The translations under genes and the position numbers were made by a program. Of a stretch of 35,727 bases of DNA, positions 3,909 to 18,917 are shown piece after piece. The stretch is from Acidobacteriota bacterium (GTDB lineage: Bacteria > Acidobacteriota > Terriglobia > Acidiferrales > UBA7541): assembly GCA_003223255.1 (NCBI GenBank), contig QHYJ01000039.1, positions 1,296 to 37,022 of the forward strand, written 5' to 3'. The stretch's first letter is position 1. The number at the start of each line of letters is the position of its first letter. The notes under the pieces were generated by a model. It was not told where the DNA came from. It did no database searches and was given only the letters and a program-made list of their open reading frames with translations.

Positions 3909-4014
3909 AAACTGTGGGATCTGTAGGGGCAGCACGGCTGCGCCTCATCTCGCCTCGATATCAGTGTTCGTCCGGCTCGTACTCAGGCATAATATGTTTT
4001 CAGGTAACCGCTTT

Positions 4015-5463
4015 ATGAACCCCTCTCTACTCACCCAATTCCGCTCCATCGTGGGCGACCGTGGCCTCATCTCCTCGCCCGAAGAACTACACACGTACGA
4101 ATGCGACGGCCTCACGAATTTTCGCGTCTTGCCTTGCGCGGTTTTGCTTCCAACTTCAACCGAGCAGGTTCAAGCCATCGTGCGAGTTTGCCATCGCGAA
4201 AGAATTCCTTTTGTCGCGCGCGGTTCTGGGACCGGCCTGAGCGGCGGCGCGCTGCCCGTGGAAAACGGCATCGTCCTTAGCCTAGCGCGCATGAATCGCA
4301 TTCTGGAAGTCGACATCCCGAATGCGCGGGTGGTCGTGGAGCCTGGGGTGATTAATCTCGATGTGACCGTGCGCGTGCAGCGCCAGGAATATTTCTACGC
4401 GCCGGATCCTTCCTCGCAATCCGTGTGCAGCATTGGCGGCAACGTCGCGGAAAATTCCGGCGGCGCGCATTGCCTGAAATACGGCTTCACGACGACGCAC
4501 GTCCTCGGCCTCGAAGTTGTTCTGCCGGATGGTTCGCTCGTGCACCTCGGCGGAAAAACGCTCGATACACCGGGCTACGACCTTGCTGGAGTTTTTGTCG
4601 GCTCCGAAGGGACGCTAGGCGTGGCCACGAGGATTATTCTTCGCATCGTCAAGCGGCCCGAATGCATTCGCACGCTGCTAGCCGCGTTTCCTTCCACCAA
4701 CGAAGCCGGGGCCGCCGTCAGCGGCATCATCGCGGCGGGCATGCTGCCTGCCGCCATGGAGATGATGGACAATTTGGCCATTCAAGCGGCCGAAGCCGCG
4801 GTTCACGCGAATTATCCCGATTGTGGCGGCTTGCTTCTCGTCGAGCTCGATGGCCCAGTTGCCGAAGTCGAAGCGCTCATGACTCACGTCGACGAAATCT
4901 GCCGTTCAAATGGCGCGCGGGAAATCCGTGTGGCGCAATCTGAGACCGAGCGCGCGCTCGTTTGGAAAGGCCGGAAAGCGGCGTTCGCCGCTGTGGGCCG
5001 GATTTCACCGAATTACATCGTGCAGGACGGCGTGATTCCCCGCACAGCTCTTCCTCAAGTGATGAGCGAGATCGAGCGGCTCAGCAAAGAAAATGGCTTG
5101 CGTGTCGCCAACGTTTTTCATGCCGGCGACGGCAACCTGCATCCGCTGGTGCTTTACGATCGGCGCATTTCCGGTCAGGAAGAGGCCGCGCTAGCGCTCT
5201 CGTTCAAGATTCTCGAACTGTGTATCGTGGCAGGCGGCTCCATCACCGGGGAACACGGTGTGGGCGAAGAAAAGAAATCCATGATGGCCAAAATGTTCGC
5301 TGAGCCTGACCTCGCCACCATGCAGCGCGTCCGCTGCGCCTTCGATCCTCTGCAGCTTGCGAACCCCACGAAAGTCTTTCCCACGCCGCGTCTGTGCGGC
5401 GAAAAGCCCGGGGAATACGTTCTGCACCCGCTCGAAACCGCCGGCCTCGCGGAGAGGTTCTGA
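4015..5463 (+). CDS. glcD: Glycolate/2-hydroxyacid oxidase subunit GlcD (FAD-linked)
   Basis: FAD-binding subunit of a glycolate (or D-lactate) oxidase that passes electrons via GlcE/GlcF to the respiratory chain. The 482-residue product (E. coli GlcD has 499) has a PCMH-type FAD domain: PCAVLLPTSTEQVQAIVRVC, ARGSGTGLSGGALP at about 70-83, CSIGGNVAENSGGAHCLKYG and GSEGTLGVATRI. The C-terminal FAD-oxidase domain carries NVFHAGDGNLHPLVLYD and GSITGEHGVGEEK. I start at ATG 4015, which gives the usual N-terminus (MNPSLLTQFRSIVGD). An ATG at 3994 and a TTG/GTG-type extension to 3964 are possible but unlike the family. It is the first intact gene of the glc cluster; glcE follows after 92 bases. Confidence 0.92.
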   Translation: MNPSLLTQFRSIVGDRGLISSPEELHTYECDGLTNFRVLPCAVLLPTSTEQVQAIVRVCHRERIPFVARGSGTGLSGGALPVENGIVLSLARMNRILEVDIPNARVVVEPGVINLDVTVRVQRQEYFYAPDPSSQSVCSIGGNVAENSGGAHCLKYGFTTTHVLGLEVVLPDGSLVHLGGKTLDTPGYDLAGVFVGSEGTLGVATRIILRIVKRPECIRTLLAAFPSTNEAGAAVSGIIAAGMLPAAMEMMDNLAIQAAEAAVHANYPDCGGLLLVELDGPVAEVEALMTHVDEICRSNGAREIRVAQSETERALVWKGRKAAFAAVGRISPNYIVQDGVIPRTALPQVMSEIERLSKENGLRVANVFHAGDGNLHPLVLYDRRISGQEEAALALSFKILELCIVAGGSITGEHGVGEEKKSMMAKMFAEPDLATMQRVRCAFDPLQLANPTKVFPTPRLCGEKPGEYVLHPLETAGLAERF

Positions 5464-5555: not shown

Positions 5556-6848
5556 ATGGACGCTGCTACCCAACCCCAGTCGACCACTCTCACCCGAGCT
5601 CTCCATGACCAGTTCGTCGCCCTTCTTGGCCCTGATCAGGTCCGTCCCACCACGCCTTCGGATGCCGTCTCTGCCGTTCAACCCCAACTGGTCCTCGAAC
5701 CTGTCAACGAACAACAACTCGCCGACGCACTCCGTATTGCAAACGAAGGCGGCCTCGCCGTCATTCTGCGCGGCGGCGGCACAAAGCTAGGGTGGGGCAA
5801 TCCGACCGCACGCGCCGACCTTATCTTGTCGACCTCGCGTCTGAACCGCGTTCTCGAGCACGCCTGGGCCGACCTCACAGTCACCGTGGAAGCCGGCTGC
5901 ACGGTTCAGGCTTTGCAGCAAACGCTCGCGCAGCACGGCCAGCGCCTGGCTATTGATCCACTGTGGCCGGAAAAAGCCACCGTCGGCGGCATTCTCTCCA
6001 CCAACGACAGCGGCGCGCTTCGTCTGCGCTTTGGCGCCTTGCGTGACTTGATCATTGGAGTGACCATAGCGCTTCCGGACGGCACGCTCGCCTCGAGCGG
6101 CGGCAAAGTCGTCAAAAATGTCGCGGGTTACGATCTACCGAAACTCGTCACCGGCGCACTCGGCACTCTCGGAGTCATTACGCGCGCCGTCTTCCGTCTG
6201 CATCCCCTCCCGCGCAAGACGTGTTCATTTTCTATCGCTGTATCAAATCCTGACGAGGCGCAAAAGTCGGTCCTCGCTATCCAGGATTCCAAACTCGCTC
6301 ACGTGGCGCTTCAATCTCATTTCTCCGTCGAATCCACTCCCACCGTCGACATCCTCTTTGAAGGCACGGAAGCGGGACTCGACGCACAAGCCGCTCATTT
6401 GCGCAGTCTTTGTCAATCCGCGAAGATTTCAGATGCCCCCATGTCCGTGTGGAGCGCACGCCAATACTTCTGGTCCTTTTCCGATTCTGCAGAAACGGTC
6501 ATCGCGAAAATCAGCATTCTGCCCGCCGACCTGGCGCGCACCATCGAACTGATTCGTCGCTCCGCGGATTCCTCGCACCTCCACTGGCAATCGCTGATGT
6601 ACGCAACGGGTCTCGGCTGGCTCCTGCTGGAAGGCTCCGCCGACAATTTCCACGGCGCACTTACGAGTTTGCGCAGCGAGCTCGAAAAAATGGGCGGCTC
6701 CTTAGCTGTGCTCTATCGGCCGTCGAATATGCCAGAGTTCGACGCCTGGGGCTCTCCCGGCAACTCCCTGCTCCTCATGAAAGCCGTCAAGTCGCGCCTC
6801 GACCCTTCCCACACCCTGAATCCAGGCCGCTTTCTCGGCGGCCTCTGA
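5556..6848 (+). CDS. glcE: Glycolate oxidase subunit GlcE (FAD-binding)
   Basis: Second FAD-binding subunit of the glycolate oxidase complex. The 430-residue protein has a PCMH FAD domain: QPQLVLEPVNEQQLADALRI, AVILRGGGTKLGWGNP at about 70-85, TVGGILSTNDSGALRLRFG and GGKVVKNVAGYDLPKLVTGA. The last motif, with KVVKNVAGYD, is characteristic of GlcE. The C-terminal region ends in SRLDPSHTLNPGRFLGGL, the usual end of the family. No clear ribosome binding site precedes the ATG. The gene belongs with glcD and glcF, but the partner glcF is separated from it by the truncated kinase/TolB gene. Confidence 0.92.
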   Translation: MDAATQPQSTTLTRALHDQFVALLGPDQVRPTTPSDAVSAVQPQLVLEPVNEQQLADALRIANEGGLAVILRGGGTKLGWGNPTARADLILSTSRLNRVLEHAWADLTVTVEAGCTVQALQQTLAQHGQRLAIDPLWPEKATVGGILSTNDSGALRLRFGALRDLIIGVTIALPDGTLASSGGKVVKNVAGYDLPKLVTGALGTLGVITRAVFRLHPLPRKTCSFSIAVSNPDEAQKSVLAIQDSKLAHVALQSHFSVESTPTVDILFEGTEAGLDAQAAHLRSLCQSAKISDAPMSVWSARQYFWSFSDSAETVIAKISILPADLARTIELIRRSADSSHLHWQSLMYATGLGWLLLEGSADNFHGALTSLRSELEKMGGSLAVLYRPSNMPEFDAWGSPGNSLLLMKAVKSRLDPSHTLNPGRFLGGL

Positions 6849-6923
6849 ATCTTCCGCGCATCAACTTGGATTTGACTTGCCATCAGGCCCGCATACCACG
6901 ACAATTTCTCGCAGGCCAAATCT

Positions 6924-8042
6924 ATGATCGGCACACTTGTTTCCAATTACCGGATCGCAGAAAGACTGGGCGGCGGCGGGATGGGCGTCGTCTACTGGGC
7001 GAAAAAGGCTTCCGATGGCAGCGGCATTCTCCTTGCTGCTCAGGAGAAAAGCGGCGCTCCGCAACAAATCTATTGGAATGCGCCAGGCAGCGCCGAGGCG
7101 GGCAAGCTCACCGCCGACGTAAACAGTTACATTGCCCTCAGTGTGGCTTCCGATTCCCGCTCTTTCCTGGCCGTCCAGAGCGACATCAACGTCAACCTCT
7201 GGGTTGGTCCCGCCAACGACCTCGGCGCCGCCGTGCAGATCACTTCCGGCCGCCTGGACGGCATCGGTGGTTTCGCCTGGACCGCCGACGGTCGCATTGT
7301 GTATCAAGGGAACGTCGCCGACACCTATCAAATCTGGATGGTCAATGCCGACGGCTCCAATGCCCATCAGCTGACCAACGACCGTTATTTCCACACGCGG
7401 CCCGCGGTCTGCGAATCCGGCCGCTCTATTGTTTTTGAATCTGACCCTGCCGGGACACACCATCTCTTCAAGATGGACTTGGACGGCAGCAACCTCACGC
7501 AAATCACGAATGGGGCAGGTGAGGGCAGCCCGAGTTGCCGCATCCAATCTAACGACCTGATGTTTTCCGGTACGAGTCCCGACGGCCGCACGCTCCTTTA
7601 CCGCATGGATCTTGGTGCGTCTCCGCCCGTTCCCGTCTCCGATCTCCTGCTCTTGGGCAATCCGGTTTATTCTCCGGATGGCAGTCGGATTATGGCGCCC
7701 TTTATGGACCCGAAGAACGGCAAGATTAAGGGCTACATCCTCCCTCCTTCGGGCGGCCCTCCGCTCTTTGCTGGCGATCCTCCTTCTACAATGGACAACA
7801 TGGGAATCGTGGGCTGGACGCCAGACGGTCGCGGCATGACCTTCCTGGATGACCGCAGCGGCATCCCCAATCTCTGGATTCTGCCGTTTGATGGTGGCCC
7901 GGCCAAGCAGCTCACCCACTTCCCAAAATCCGAGATTCATGGCTTCGTCTGGTCTCCCGACGGCAAGCGCATCGCCCTCTCCCGCGGCGCCATGGAGCAA
8001 AACGTCGTCCTCATCAAAACCGGCCCTAGCAGGCAACCATGA
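6924..8042 (+). CDS. TolB-like beta-propeller protein with a leftover kinase P-loop (deleted Ser/Thr kinase)
   Basis: Residues 1-24 (MIGTLVSNYRIAERLGGGGM, then GVVY) are the start of a Pkn2-type Ser/Thr kinase, including the glycine-rich ATP loop. From residue 25 the sequence jumps to the C-terminal TolB/WD40-like propeller of the large kinase-TolB proteins. Blades are marked by FAWTADGRIVYQG, DTYQIWMVNADGSNAHQLTN, HHLFKMDLDGSNLTQITN, PVYSPDGSRI and FVWSPDGKRIALSRG. The catalytic lysine, HRD and DFG motifs and the transmembrane segment are all missing, so it cannot be an active kinase. The join is in frame and the 372-residue ORF is intact. Its stop overlaps the glcF start (ATGA at 8039), so it is translationally coupled to an oxidase subunit. 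No secretion signal is visible. It could be a neutral relic or a new cytoplasmic propeller. Confidence 0.8.
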   Translation: MIGTLVSNYRIAERLGGGGMGVVYWAKKASDGSGILLAAQEKSGAPQQIYWNAPGSAEAGKLTADVNSYIALSVASDSRSFLAVQSDINVNLWVGPANDLGAAVQITSGRLDGIGGFAWTADGRIVYQGNVADTYQIWMVNADGSNAHQLTNDRYFHTRPAVCESGRSIVFESDPAGTHHLFKMDLDGSNLTQITNGAGEGSPSCRIQSNDLMFSGTSPDGRTLLYRMDLGASPPVPVSDLLLLGNPVYSPDGSRIMAPFMDPKNGKIKGYILPPSGGPPLFAGDPPSTMDNMGIVGWTPDGRGMTFLDDRSGIPNLWILPFDGGPAKQLTHFPKSEIHGFVWSPDGKRIALSRGAMEQNVVLIKTGPSRQP

Positions 8043-9358
8043 CAAGCACTTGCAATCCGCTTCCTTCCGCCTTCGACACGCATCATCCGCCGTCCACGAC
8101 CATTATCGACAAGTGCGTGCACTGCGGCTTCTGTTTGCCGGTCTGCCCCACGTACGTGCTCTGGAACGAGGAAATGGATTCGCCGCGTGGCCGCATCTAC
8201 CTGATGAAGCTCGCTTCCGAAGGCAATGCGCAGATCAATCCCAAATGGGTCAGCCACTTCGATAGCTGTCTCGGCTGCATGGCCTGCATGACCGCGTGCC
8301 CTTCCGGCGTGGACTATGGCAAGCTGATTGAAGCCACGCGGGCGCAAATTGAGCGGAATTTCCCGCGCTCCTCCGTGGAGAAGCGCCATCGCCATTTTCT
8401 TTTTGACACCTTCACCCGGCCAGACCGCCTGCGCCGCTTGCGCGCGCCGCTTCTTGCCTACCAAAAATCGGGATTACAAGCTCTTGTCCGTGGCTTGCGC
8501 TTGGTAAAACTCCTGCCCAAACGATTGCAGACAATGGAAGCGCTACTTCCCCGACTCACGCCACAAGAAGCAGTGCCGGAAGTCACCGCTGCGGTTGGCA
8601 TAAAGCGCCGCCGCGTCGGGTTGCTCCTCGGTTGCGTGCAGCGCGAATTTTTCTCGCAGGTGAATGCCGCCACGGCGCGCGTGCTCTCCGCCGAAGGCTG
8701 CGAGGTGGTTGCTCCCCAAGCGCAACCTTGTTGCGGTGCGTTACTCGTGCATGCCGGAGAAGAAGCCGCCGCCATCGAGCTCGCCAGGAAGACCATTGAC
8801 GCTTTCGGGCACGCCGAGGTGGAAACCATCGTTACCAACGCCGCCGGATGCGGCTCCAACGTGAAGGAGTATGGTTACTTGCTCCGCGACGATCCGGAGT
8901 ACGCGGAGCGCGCCAGAGCATTCTCTGCAAAATGCAAAGACATCAGCGAAGTTCTTGCGGAACTCGATCCACGCAGCAAGCGTCATCCTTTAAAATTGCG
9001 CGTGGCCTTTCACGACTCCTGCCACTTGCAGCACGCGCAAGCCGTTCACTCGCAACCGCGCGCTTTGCTTTCGGCCATTCCCGGCCTCGAACTCACGGAA
9101 ATTCCCGAATCTGCCATTTGCTGCGGCTCTGCCGGCATCTACAATCTCGTGCAGCCCGACTCCGCCCAATCCCTCGGGGACCGCAAAGCCGAACTGGTTT
9201 CGCAACTCAAAGCCGACGTCGTCGCTACCGGCAACCCCGGCTGCATCCTGCAACTCCAGTCCGCCCTCTCGCGCCGCGGTCAAAAAACACCCGTTGTGCA
9301 CACGATTCAGCTTCTGGATGCTTCCCTCCGCGGCAAGCGCTCAGATTTCTTGCGTTGA
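8039..9358 (+). CDS. glcF: Glycolate oxidase iron-sulfur subunit GlcF
   Basis: Iron-sulfur subunit carrying electrons from GlcD/GlcE onward. The 439-residue protein begins with two [4Fe-4S] ferredoxin motifs, CVHCGFCLPVCPTY (about 27-40) and CLGCMACMTACPSG (about 78-91). These are followed by the two cysteine-rich CCG domains typical of GlcF/LutA-type proteins: LLGCVQREFF with QPCCGALLVHAGE, and FHDSCHLQHAQ with SAICCGSAGIYN. The start codon overlaps the stop of the preceding propeller gene by four bases. The usual companion glcE lies one gene further upstream. Confidence 0.93.
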   Translation: MTSTCNPLPSAFDTHHPPSTTIIDKCVHCGFCLPVCPTYVLWNEEMDSPRGRIYLMKLASEGNAQINPKWVSHFDSCLGCMACMTACPSGVDYGKLIEATRAQIERNFPRSSVEKRHRHFLFDTFTRPDRLRRLRAPLLAYQKSGLQALVRGLRLVKLLPKRLQTMEALLPRLTPQEAVPEVTAAVGIKRRRVGLLLGCVQREFFSQVNAATARVLSAEGCEVVAPQAQPCCGALLVHAGEEAAAIELARKTIDAFGHAEVETIVTNAAGCGSNVKEYGYLLRDDPEYAERARAFSAKCKDISEVLAELDPRSKRHPLKLRVAFHDSCHLQHAQAVHSQPRALLSAIPGLELTEIPESAICCGSAGIYNLVQPDSAQSLGDRKAELVSQLKADVVATGNPGCILQLQSALSRRGQKTPVVHTIQLLDASLRGKRSDFLR

Positions 9359-16090: not shown

Positions 16091-16856
16091 GTTCTCTGCT
16101 GCGCGAGACCGTAGCTCCCCCGGCTCACCGCACGATCTGTAAGTCCAAAATCCGCGGGACGAATCAGGAGCTTATTGAACGAAGTAAAACCTGTCGTTCC
16201 AGGGAGCGAAGCGACGAGGAATCTGCTTTCTCGTGAGTTTCTTCAAAAGTATCCGCTGCGCTCCGCAAGACAACTAACGGCATTATTCAATAAGCTGTCG
16301 GAGTTCTGCGGCGCTAAAAATTTCTTCCGGGTTTCTTGCTCGCACACTGCGGAGGCGGGCAGGATCAGCCGGGGTGCCTTGGCCCCTCAGCGAAGCGCCC
16401 CGGCTCAGTTTTGTCTAGGCACCCGCCGCGGATTGGCGAAGGAACGCGGACCTGCTGGATAAAGCTCTTTGCCGCGGACTGACGCGGACCCATGCCTAGA
16501 CCCATGCCCTAGTTTGTACGCCTCTTAGAGCACACAGTCTCCCACGATGCGCCCGCGAAAGATCACGCTCAAAGGGAATTGGCTCCTGTGAGGACTACCA
16601 TCTCGGCACTTCCACAGGGAATGAACGGATGAGAATACTTCTCCCCCGCGCTAAGCTAACCGTTACCGCTGGCGCAACCTGTACTTTGGGTCAGGCGATT
16701 TTTACAGCCTAGGTGAGAGAGGATTGGGGAGCCCAACGGAAGTTCCTTGTGGACTCGAAAGTGGGGGCTGGCGTTGCGCGGATTCGCACGCGGGATCCGC
16801 GGCCAGGCGCACATATGGCCGACAGAGGAAGTAGTTCCTCGGGGGAAAGTGCTCGA
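16091..16856. other. Long intergenic region containing a MITE-like element
   Basis: Apart from the repeat element at 16169-16296 I see no gene. A short direct repeat, GACCCATGCC(C)TAG, occurs twice at about 16488-16513. The reading frame of the pentapeptide-repeat gene is open back to 16713, but no ribosome binding site supports the earlier starts. Confidence 0.5.
16169..16296. repeat. MITE-like element with 11-bp terminal inverted repeats
   Basis: AGCTTATTGAA (16169-16179) and its exact reverse complement TTCAATAAGCT (16286-16296) bound a 128-bp non-coding stretch. The interior contains GAGCGAAGCGACGAGGAATC, a motif repeated elsewhere in the window (19051-19085 inverted, 25621-25660 direct). 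It has no coding capacity, as expected of a non-autonomous element. Confidence 0.6.
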
Positions 16857-18917
16857 ATGTCTCCGGATATCCATGCAATCAAAGAAGTGGAAGAACTAAA
16901 AACGGAAATTACCATCGATGCCGCCGCAAAAGAAACACCTCCTGCGGTGGAAGAGGTTCCCAGCCGCGAAGGCACCATCGGAATTTCTCTGATCGATCTT
17001 GCAGAAATTCTGGATCAGCACAAGCAGTGGGTGGAATCGGGCGGAGAAAGCGGCGCCAGGGCGGACCTCACCGGCGTCAACCTGGCTAAAGCGGACCTCA
17101 CCGGCGTCAATTTGCAGGCCGCACACTTGCATCGGGTAAATTTATCGGGCGCGGACCTTTCCATGGCCAACCTCCGGGGAGCCAGCCTAGTTCGGGCAAA
17201 TCTACAAAACAGTAATCTACTAGGAACGGAATTAAGAGGCGCCAATTTGATGGGCGCCAACGTGTACGGTGCCGACGGCTTGTGGTTCGGGCGCCTCGGC
17301 GGAACGAACCTTTTCGACGCGGTGCTTCCTGAATCGATTTCCGCGATGGACAGCTCGAAAGCGATTGGCGACGCCACGAAAGTCGCGCGCTGGTTCTATT
17401 TTCTGACCGTTGGCCTGAGCTTGCTCTGTTGCCTGCTGATTATCTACACCACCGATGTGCGCCTGCTCTTGAACTCGTCCGCACTGCCCTTCCCCAAACT
17501 CGGCAATCTGCTGCCGATGACCGGACTGTATCTTGGCGGGCCCATCGTTCTTCTGGTCCTCTCGCTGCGTTTTCATTTTCTGCTCTTGCGGTTGTGGGGC
17601 AGCATGGCCGCGTTGCCCGCGGTGTTTCCCGACGGGCAAACCCTCGAAAAAGACGGTCCGTGGTATCTGATGGGCCTCGTGCGAAGGCACTTCCGCTGGC
17701 AGGGGGAATCGCGCGCGGCCATGACCGCGTTCGAATCGGCGCTTTCGACGGTCCTTGCTTACTGGATCGTTCCGGTCACGCTCTTCTTTTTTTGGCTGCG
17801 CTACTTGACGCGCCAGGATTTTCGCGGAACGTTGCTTCACGTTTTTCTGATGACCCTTGCGGTGGCCACTGCGACGAGCATTCCCTTCGTTGTCTCGCGC
17901 GTGCTGCGGCCCGGCGATATCCGGTTGCCAAAATCCAAAAACGTTTTGCGAATGATTCTGGGAACCACGCGCGCGGCGCTCGCCGTGGGATGCATCCTCT
18001 TTATCATTTCGCTTGGCGTGAACCGCGGCCTGCCTTCCGACAAGACGGGCAGCGCGGCAGGCTCAGCCGCTGATCCTCGCCGCTGGGCCGCTACGATTTT
18101 TCAATCGGTGGGTTACCGGCCTTACGCGGACCTGACCGAAGCTTCGCTTTCCACGCCTCTTCCTAAGGGAACGCCCTGGACCGACGAAAACGTGACGAAA
18201 ATTTCGGGCGCGCACTTGAATGAAATGAATTTGCGCTACGCGCGGGCGTATCACGCCTTTTTGGTGAACGCCAAATTATGGCGAGCCAATCTCGAAGGCT
18301 CTTATTTTTCGGAAGCGGATCTGCGGGGAGCGAATTTGCGGGAAACCTTGCTGCGCTCCGGAATTTTCGACCGCGCGCAACTTTCGCATGTGGTCATGGT
18401 TTCTGCCAATGCCACCGGCGCGAATTTTTCCGCGGCGGATTTGCGTTTTTCGGATTTGTCCTACGGCACGTTTGAAAACACGGTGCTTTCGAACGCCAAA
18501 GCGTCCGGTGCCTCGCTTTACGCGGTCAATCTGCGCAACAGTCAACTTTTACGCACCGACCTTTCGCGCACGGACATGCGAGACGCCAGGCTCGAACACG
18601 CGGTGCTTTCCTTTGCCAACCTCGAGCAGACGGACCTTTCCTCGGCCCGGCTGGCAGACGCCAATTTGACGGGAGCTTTGTGCAAAGGAACGATTTTCTT
18701 GGACGCGGATTTGAAGAACGCGGATTTGCGAGGAGCCAGTTTGGTGGGCGCCGTTTTGCGTGGGGCGGAAACGGACGGAGCCAACCTTGCGGGCGCGGAT
18801 TTGCGAGGGGCGCTGGGAATCACGTCCTTGCAGGTTTGTTCTGCGCAGAATGGCAGGACGGCGATCATGGACCCGGATCTCGCGGGAGAAGTGCAAGTTC
18901 GCTGCGGATCTCATTAG
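16857..18917 (+). CDS. Membrane-embedded pentapeptide-repeat protein
   Basis: Predicted 686-residue protein with an unusual sandwich layout. An N-terminal linker (1-60) precedes a first pentapeptide-repeat block (about 65-150; for example ADLTGVNLAKADLTGVNLQA). About five transmembrane helices follow (about 175-390; FYFLTVGLSLLCCLLIIY, GLYLGGPIVLLVLSLRFHFL, YWIVPVTLFFFWLRYL, VFLMTLAVATATSIPFVV, ALAVGCILFIISLGV). A second, longer repeat block lies at about 450-645 (ANLEGSYFSEADLRGANLRE and similar). The A(D/N)LxG/x pattern is that of right-handed quadrilateral beta-helices. The function is unknown to me; such helices usually mediate protein contacts. I start at ATG 16857 (GGGGGAAAG upstream); ATG 16815 and GTG 16713 are in frame. 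It stands alone. Confidence 0.8.
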   Translation: MSPDIHAIKEVEELKTEITIDAAAKETPPAVEEVPSREGTIGISLIDLAEILDQHKQWVESGGESGARADLTGVNLAKADLTGVNLQAAHLHRVNLSGADLSMANLRGASLVRANLQNSNLLGTELRGANLMGANVYGADGLWFGRLGGTNLFDAVLPESISAMDSSKAIGDATKVARWFYFLTVGLSLLCCLLIIYTTDVRLLLNSSALPFPKLGNLLPMTGLYLGGPIVLLVLSLRFHFLLLRLWGSMAALPAVFPDGQTLEKDGPWYLMGLVRRHFRWQGESRAAMTAFESALSTVLAYWIVPVTLFFFWLRYLTRQDFRGTLLHVFLMTLAVATATSIPFVVSRVLRPGDIRLPKSKNVLRMILGTTRAALAVGCILFIISLGVNRGLPSDKTGSAAGSAADPRRWAATIFQSVGYRPYADLTEASLSTPLPKGTPWTDENVTKISGAHLNEMNLRYARAYHAFLVNAKLWRANLEGSYFSEADLRGANLRETLLRSGIFDRAQLSHVVMVSANATGANFSAADLRFSDLSYGTFENTVLSNAKASGASLYAVNLRNSQLLRTDLSRTDMRDARLEHAVLSFANLEQTDLSSARLADANLTGALCKGTIFLDADLKNADLRGASLVGAVLRGAETDGANLAGADLRGALGITSLQVCSAQNGRTAIMDPDLAGEVQVRCGSH

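Follow-up and report, generated by a model that had tools for sequence, protein, structure and literature searches.

The stretch of DNA analyzed here, the window, comprises 35,727 nucleotides from an Acidobacteriota bacterium (genome G000) and carries the genes glcD, glcE and glcF in this order on one strand, as in a glcDEF cluster. GlcD and GlcE were the best NCBIfam matches of the first two products though both scored below the family cut-offs, whereas GlcF was above its own (Table 1). Relatives align with GlcD from residue ~8-22, and the true glcD start may lie downstream of the annotated GTG. The window differs from an uninterrupted glcDEF arrangement in that a foreign gene lies between glcE and glcF. 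Its reading frame (6924-8042, plus strand) is open throughout from ATG to TGA, encodes 372 amino acids and shares with glcF the 4-nt overlap of coupled gene pairs. A protein of 734 aa with many pentapeptide repeats is encoded elsewhere in the window (16713-18917); genes for a nitrite/sulfite reductase and a formate/nitrite transporter lie downstream of it.

Table 1. Features of the glc region in the window and of the corresponding loci in relatives (coordinates with L numbers).
Feature	Position	Strand	Basis
glcD, FAD-binding glycolate oxidase subunit	3964..5463	+	TIGR00387, 514.7 bits (under cut-off 567.9); FAD_binding_4 and FAD-oxidase_C
glcE	5556..6848	+	NF008439 (GlcE), 150.5 bits (under cut-off 284); FAD_binding_4
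Spacer between glcE and remnant, 75 nt (74 in G012, 77 in G006)	6849..6923	+	coordinates
Kinase N-terminal remnant, residues 1-28, with glycine loop	6924..7007	+	codon table against relatives
Deletion junction	7000..7013	+	alignment with G006 and G012
Remaining propeller	7014..8039	+	identity to G012 and G006; PD40 match
ATGA overlap, stop TGA of remnant and start ATG of glcF	8039..8042	+	coordinates, 4 nt
glcF, 4Fe-4S and CCG domains	8039..9358	+	NF008434 (GlcF), 344.5 bits (above cut-off 333); Pfam
Kinase-PspC-propeller gene in relatives	L067:7287-9802, L066:2894-5867		
Unrelated genes in the glcE-glcF gap of relatives	L070:5924-7553, L077:4850-6870, L081:2939-6249		named by eye

In the product of the intervening gene, 24-28 residues from the N-terminus of a kinase lead in frame into a TolB-like propeller. 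Residues 1-24 matched each of the syntenic kinases from genomes G006 and G012 at 22 of 24 positions, including the LGGGGMGVVY glycine loop, while in the codon table residues 12, 14, 25, 27 and 28 were unlike both relatives. The propeller part is 84% identical to the G012 protein over residues 30-214, where the G012 gene reaches the contig end, and 73% identical to the G006 protein over residues 29-368. A Pfam search (1e-3) of the remnant (P0001) returned PD40 with 60.4 bits against a cut-off of 20.9, which places it among the PD40/TolB-like propellers, together with three other families of propeller type. The same search did not return PF00069, so that the remnant falls outside the Ser/Thr protein kinases as far as the catalytic domain is concerned. 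Counted by eye, about eight PD40-like repeats are left compared with about 12 in the full-length relatives. The product would presumably be soluble and cytosolic, a propeller devoid of kinase activity. The first-pass annotation had described an intact frame in which 24 residues of a kinase N-terminus with an intact glycine loop are fused to a propeller and which overlaps the glcF start as ATGA, and the searches agree with this description.

Relatives of the remnant were sought in 36 genomes of the genus and 89 genomes of the family, G000 being included in both samples. At least 14 of the 36 genus genomes gave a match at E<=1e-30 and at least 9 of the 89 family genomes at E<=1e-50 (own genome included; candidates partly scored where there were many). 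Among the listed matches, close propeller relatives were found in G006 and G012 only, in both of which the gene is full-length; the more distant matches in the genus are 29-36% identical and reside in open frames of 452 to 978 aa. The first-pass annotation had proposed looking for the same fusion between glcE and glcF in relatives. G006 and G012 hold a full-length gene there instead, and the deleted form was not seen in any relative among the matches inspected at these thresholds. A truncated remote paralogue may exist elsewhere among the short distant matches.

The full-length gene starts at the same site in G006 and G012, 74-77 nt 3' of glcE, and encodes a kinase, a PspC domain, a membrane segment (by eye) and then the propeller. 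In the full-length protein P0003, which has one extra N-terminal residue, Pkinase spans residues 10-274 and PspC residues 326-381. Three other kinase-propeller proteins of the genus, more distantly related (L090, L091, L092), gave no PspC match at 1e-5. We found no paper on a PspC-kinase fusion or on Ser/Thr kinase paralogues in Acidobacteria, which is not to claim absence from print, and the papers found on kinase-TolB-propeller proteins in this group were off-topic by title. Since G006 and G012 hold the full-length gene at the same place, the deletion occurred in the G000 lineage. The aligned loci show that the kinase gene already followed glcE and, in G006 at least, preceded glcF, and that G000 has lost the middle of this gene. 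Mapped by coordinates against the full-length G012 gene, as the first-pass annotation had suggested, the net loss amounts to 1,872 nt or 624 codons and comprises almost the whole kinase, PspC, the membrane segment and ~200 propeller residues, roughly the first third of the propeller. Hence the catalytic domain and the membrane anchor, both present in the full-length relatives, are gone as had been stated, and the loss extends further, to PspC and the N-terminal third of the propeller, which that annotation had missed.

On the 5' side of the junction, similarity to the relatives fades at about residues 25-28. Seven bases from the WLPDG codons (GGCTTCC) survive on the 3' side, shifted by one base from the reading phase that both relatives use, which indicates a complex junction. 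A two-step frame repair is suggested by this phase shift, but a single complex junction also explains it, and the former was not relied on. From position 7014 onward the other two frames meet their first stops at 7120 and 7436, and only the frame of the remnant reaches glcF. Sites changed in G000 only numbered 4 of 27 comparable ones in residues 1-28 and 13 of 147 in the propeller; three of the four adjoin the junction, and no conclusion about relaxation of the N-terminus was drawn.

A further difference concerns the 3' end. About 395 nt before glcF, including a promoter-like block, are missing in G000 compared with G006, and the ATGA overlap results from this. A TAG is present in G000 at the position of the G006 stop but one base out of frame, so that reading continues for a few residues to ATGA. 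The block upstream of glcF is common to G006, G008, G007 and G011 and has hexamers resembling TTGCCT-N17/18-TACCTT. For five of the six pairs among these genomes, no more than 2 of 300 shuffles scored as high; for the pair G006-G007, 194 of 300 did. It was not found before glcF of G000, the four pairs with G000 being equalled by 187, 21, 134 and 184 of 300 shuffles. We infer that the shared block is a candidate promoter, although its hexamers are poor sigma-70 matches, and that the missing ~395 nt probably represent a loss in G000 rather than a gain in G006, the one genome in which a spacer behind the kinase gene was seen. In the spacer after glcE, the relatives carry a promoter-like TTGACT-N17-TACCAT/TAACAT, where G000 has a spacer of 16 and TACCAC (by eye). 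A scan for promoter-like sequences gave one match at 6877-6905 that agrees at 9 of 12 positions, compared to 0.4 expected in the scanned region, and because of it the remnant may have transcription of its own.

The glcE-glcF region was compared in 19 of the 35 other congeners, chosen for their top glcF matches (>=67% identity). Both genes lie on one contig in 18 of these and within ~145 nt of each other in 14 of the 18, in line with the earlier statement that the remnant separates genes that normally adjoin. The remaining four have inserts, which are the kinase gene in G006, a beta-helix-like gene in G008 and a pair of MBL-fold and creatininase-like genes in G025 and G032 (the latter three named by eye). 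G012 was left out of this count, its glcE and glcF lying on different contigs, the latter behind a different upstream sequence, and its kinase gene running off the contig. The start of glcF in G012 is found on two contigs (L068:1-124, L069:1-700) with near-identical upstream sequence and a gene for a LysE-like permease (by eye) beside one of them; strain mixture, duplication and an assembly break are alternative explanations. In the trees of glcF and glcE, the genomes G000, G006, G012, G008, G007 and G011 form a single clade, with values of 100/99 and 98/97 and weak inner forks, and the three kinase carriers did not group within it (0% and 9% of bootstrap trees). The trees thus lend no support to a single origin of the insert; one gain followed by losses and several gains are both compatible with them. 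The locus is unstable, with a frameshifted copy in G006 and other genes occupying the gap of three relatives.

In a three-taxon comparison of 185 codons under the free model, dN/dS was 0.077 for G000, 0.067 for G012 and 0.100 for G006, and for glcF of the same genomes 0.090, 0.084 and 0.057, respectively. The pair G000-G006 (154 codons) gave a ratio of 0.078. Synonymous change was near saturation, and the ratios alone were used. When a final fraction f of the G000 branch was modelled as neutral, the log-likelihood was -2326.33 (f=0), -2327.59 (0.05), -2328.20 (0.07) and -2329.08 (0.10), so that the fit was best with no neutral tail and worsened by 1.3 log units with a tail of 5% and by 1.9 with one of 7%. 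This indicates that the propeller was constrained for nearly the whole branch, and either the deletion is recent or the constraint persisted after it. The low ratio fits a maintained protein and a deletion within the last ~5-7% of the branch alike. The test for purifying selection proposed in the first-pass annotation thus yielded a low ratio and failed to separate these two cases. The full-length G006 copy is itself frameshifted at a run of seven G in the propeller (L066:4492-4498), through either a sequencing error or true decay. Among the 13 kinase matches above cut-off in the genome of the window, two belong to genes that look broken, one (C178, L089) by a frameshift close to where the kinase domain ends, with the propeller in another frame, and the other (C62, L100) by in-frame stops. 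Broken kinase genes are therefore not rare here, and draft-assembly errors could explain some of them.

An AlphaFold2 model of the remnant, built from four sequences, reached a pLDDT of 65.8 and a pTM of 0.66. Its strands run between residues 22 and 365, kinase residues 22-28 being modelled as one of them. The longer G006 propeller gave 74.0 and 0.62, and in this model, judged by eye, the cut falls between two strands of what appears to be a single blade. Foldseek TM-scores for the remnant were middling (~0.44-0.49 for TolB, 0.5-0.6 for S9 peptidases), and VIA-align placed it over nearly its whole length on solved propellers, best on 1r5m (Z 24.3, 317 residues, 3.6 A). A propeller ring formed by the remnant is plausible on these models.

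Ordinary decay is the most likely origin of the gene in its present form. We tentatively propose, with a probability of about 40%, that the gene is a decay remnant of a kinase-PspC-propeller gene that was absorbed into the glc operon and whose frame is kept open mainly through coupling to glcF. Synteny shows that a membrane kinase-PspC-propeller gene had come to lie between glcE and glcF earlier in this clade. The G000 lineage then lost the catalytic core together with PspC, the membrane segment and the initial propeller repeats through an internal deletion that on balance kept the frame. A second change would have taken the spacer with the promoter-like block of glcF, the absence of which is observed and the loss of which is presumed. 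The leftover frame would continue the glc transcript, and ribosomes leaving it may re-initiate at glcF via ATGA. Such re-initiation is suggested by tested gene pairs in two other species that are coupled by ATGA overlaps; in that account, ATGA is the commonest coupled overlap arrangement, and gaps of ~20 nt nearly abolished coupling in the six Haloferax volcanii and E. coli pairs tested (PMC10666635). Premature stops in the remnant would uncouple glcF, which could be the main reason that the frame has stayed open, rather than a surviving kinase signal. Several points speak against absorption: the remnant starts 75 nt 3' of glcE, which is too far for coupling to glcE; the match at 6877-6905 may give it a transcript of its own; the block upstream of glcF has poor sigma-70 hexamers; the spacer behind the kinase gene was seen in G006 alone, the G012 gene running off its contig; and a branch dN/dS of 0.077 is also expected if the protein is useful.

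Almost as likely as an absorbed remnant, if somewhat improbable taken by itself, is a recent neutral leftover. A late deletion would have been in frame by chance (~1 in 3), stops would not yet have been collected, and the gene would play no role for itself or for glcF. The failure of the genus and family searches to reveal close relatives with the same fusion accords with such a late event, as do the frameshifted G006 copy and the broken-looking C178 and C62 kinase genes of G000; if the gene has evolved neutrally from the deletion onward, no more than ~5-7% of the branch can postdate that event. It is less easily reconciled with the fact that two changes, the internal deletion and the loss of the 3' spacer, both had to leave an open frame ending on ATGA. 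A functional cytosolic propeller is less likely than either. It would be a soluble beta-propeller that descends from the kinase's sensor half and is co-translated with GlcF, perhaps acting in assembly of glycolate oxidase or in sensing. The AlphaFold model and the near full-length alignment to solved propellers argue for it, as do the similarity of the branch ratio to that of glcF (0.090), the strand modelled from kinase residues 22-28 and, according to PMC10666635, an enrichment of complex subunits among overlapping gene pairs. The modest confidence of a model from four sequences, the middling TM-scores, the cut through an apparent blade, the occurrence in a single genome and the missing membrane anchor for a presumably extracytoplasmic domain all argue against it. 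The more specific version, in which the propeller is a co-translated glycolate oxidase accessory and the glycine-loop strand replaces the lost strand of the cut blade, we regard as quite improbable. The first-pass annotation had taken the maintained frame as a hint at use, and the data do not establish this, given that the fusion was seen in one genome only, that dN/dS fits a recent deletion and that the full-length G006 copy is frameshifted. Its hint at translational coupling stands as regards the overlap but not as a sign that the protein is used, the overlap being equally explained by coupling to glcF. Likewise, its cytoplasmic propeller is allowed by AlphaFold as a ring at modest confidence, but use as a protein does not follow.

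An assembly artefact, with a full-length gene in reality and 1.87 kb skipped in the draft, is unlikely. The source assembly is in 428 contigs, and kinase N-termini are alike among paralogues (67% with C353 over residues 1-27), which could favor such an error. Against it, both sides of the junction derive from the same orthologous gene, a search of the genome that allowed 3 mismatches gave a single site for the 36-base junction word, and the junction contains bases matching neither side, which a sequence collapsed cleanly at a shared word would not have. The idea that G000 has a full-length copy at another locus was considered and rejected: the best-scoring outside match, C178 (2.8e-22), is 30% identical, and the G012 protein found no match in G000 at E<=1e-150 (27 of 63 candidates scored), indicating that the lost half does not reside elsewhere in the assembly.

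With a full-length relative at the same locus, this is a clear case of an inserted signalling gene that shrinks within a metabolic operon while the operon closes around it. If the proposed coupling is true, a dead insert would be kept open as a bridge to the downstream gene; otherwise this would be ordinary decay. With the kinase-PD40/TolB-like propeller proteins of G012 and G006 the remnant shares the locus, the start and the C-terminal propeller, but it has neither the catalytic core nor PspC nor the membrane segment, and about a third of its propeller is gone from the N-terminal side. It resembles TolB of the Tol-Pal system in its PD40-type propeller and matches TIGR02800 over part of the protein; however, its score of 85.0 bits is far under the equivalog cut-off of 343.15, and it sits in a glc gene cluster. 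Like the coupled ATGA pairs described in PMC10666635, the remnant and glcF share a 4-nt stop/start overlap, whereas the upstream partner here is what remains of a gene foreign to the enzyme complex and the coupling is predicted from sequence.
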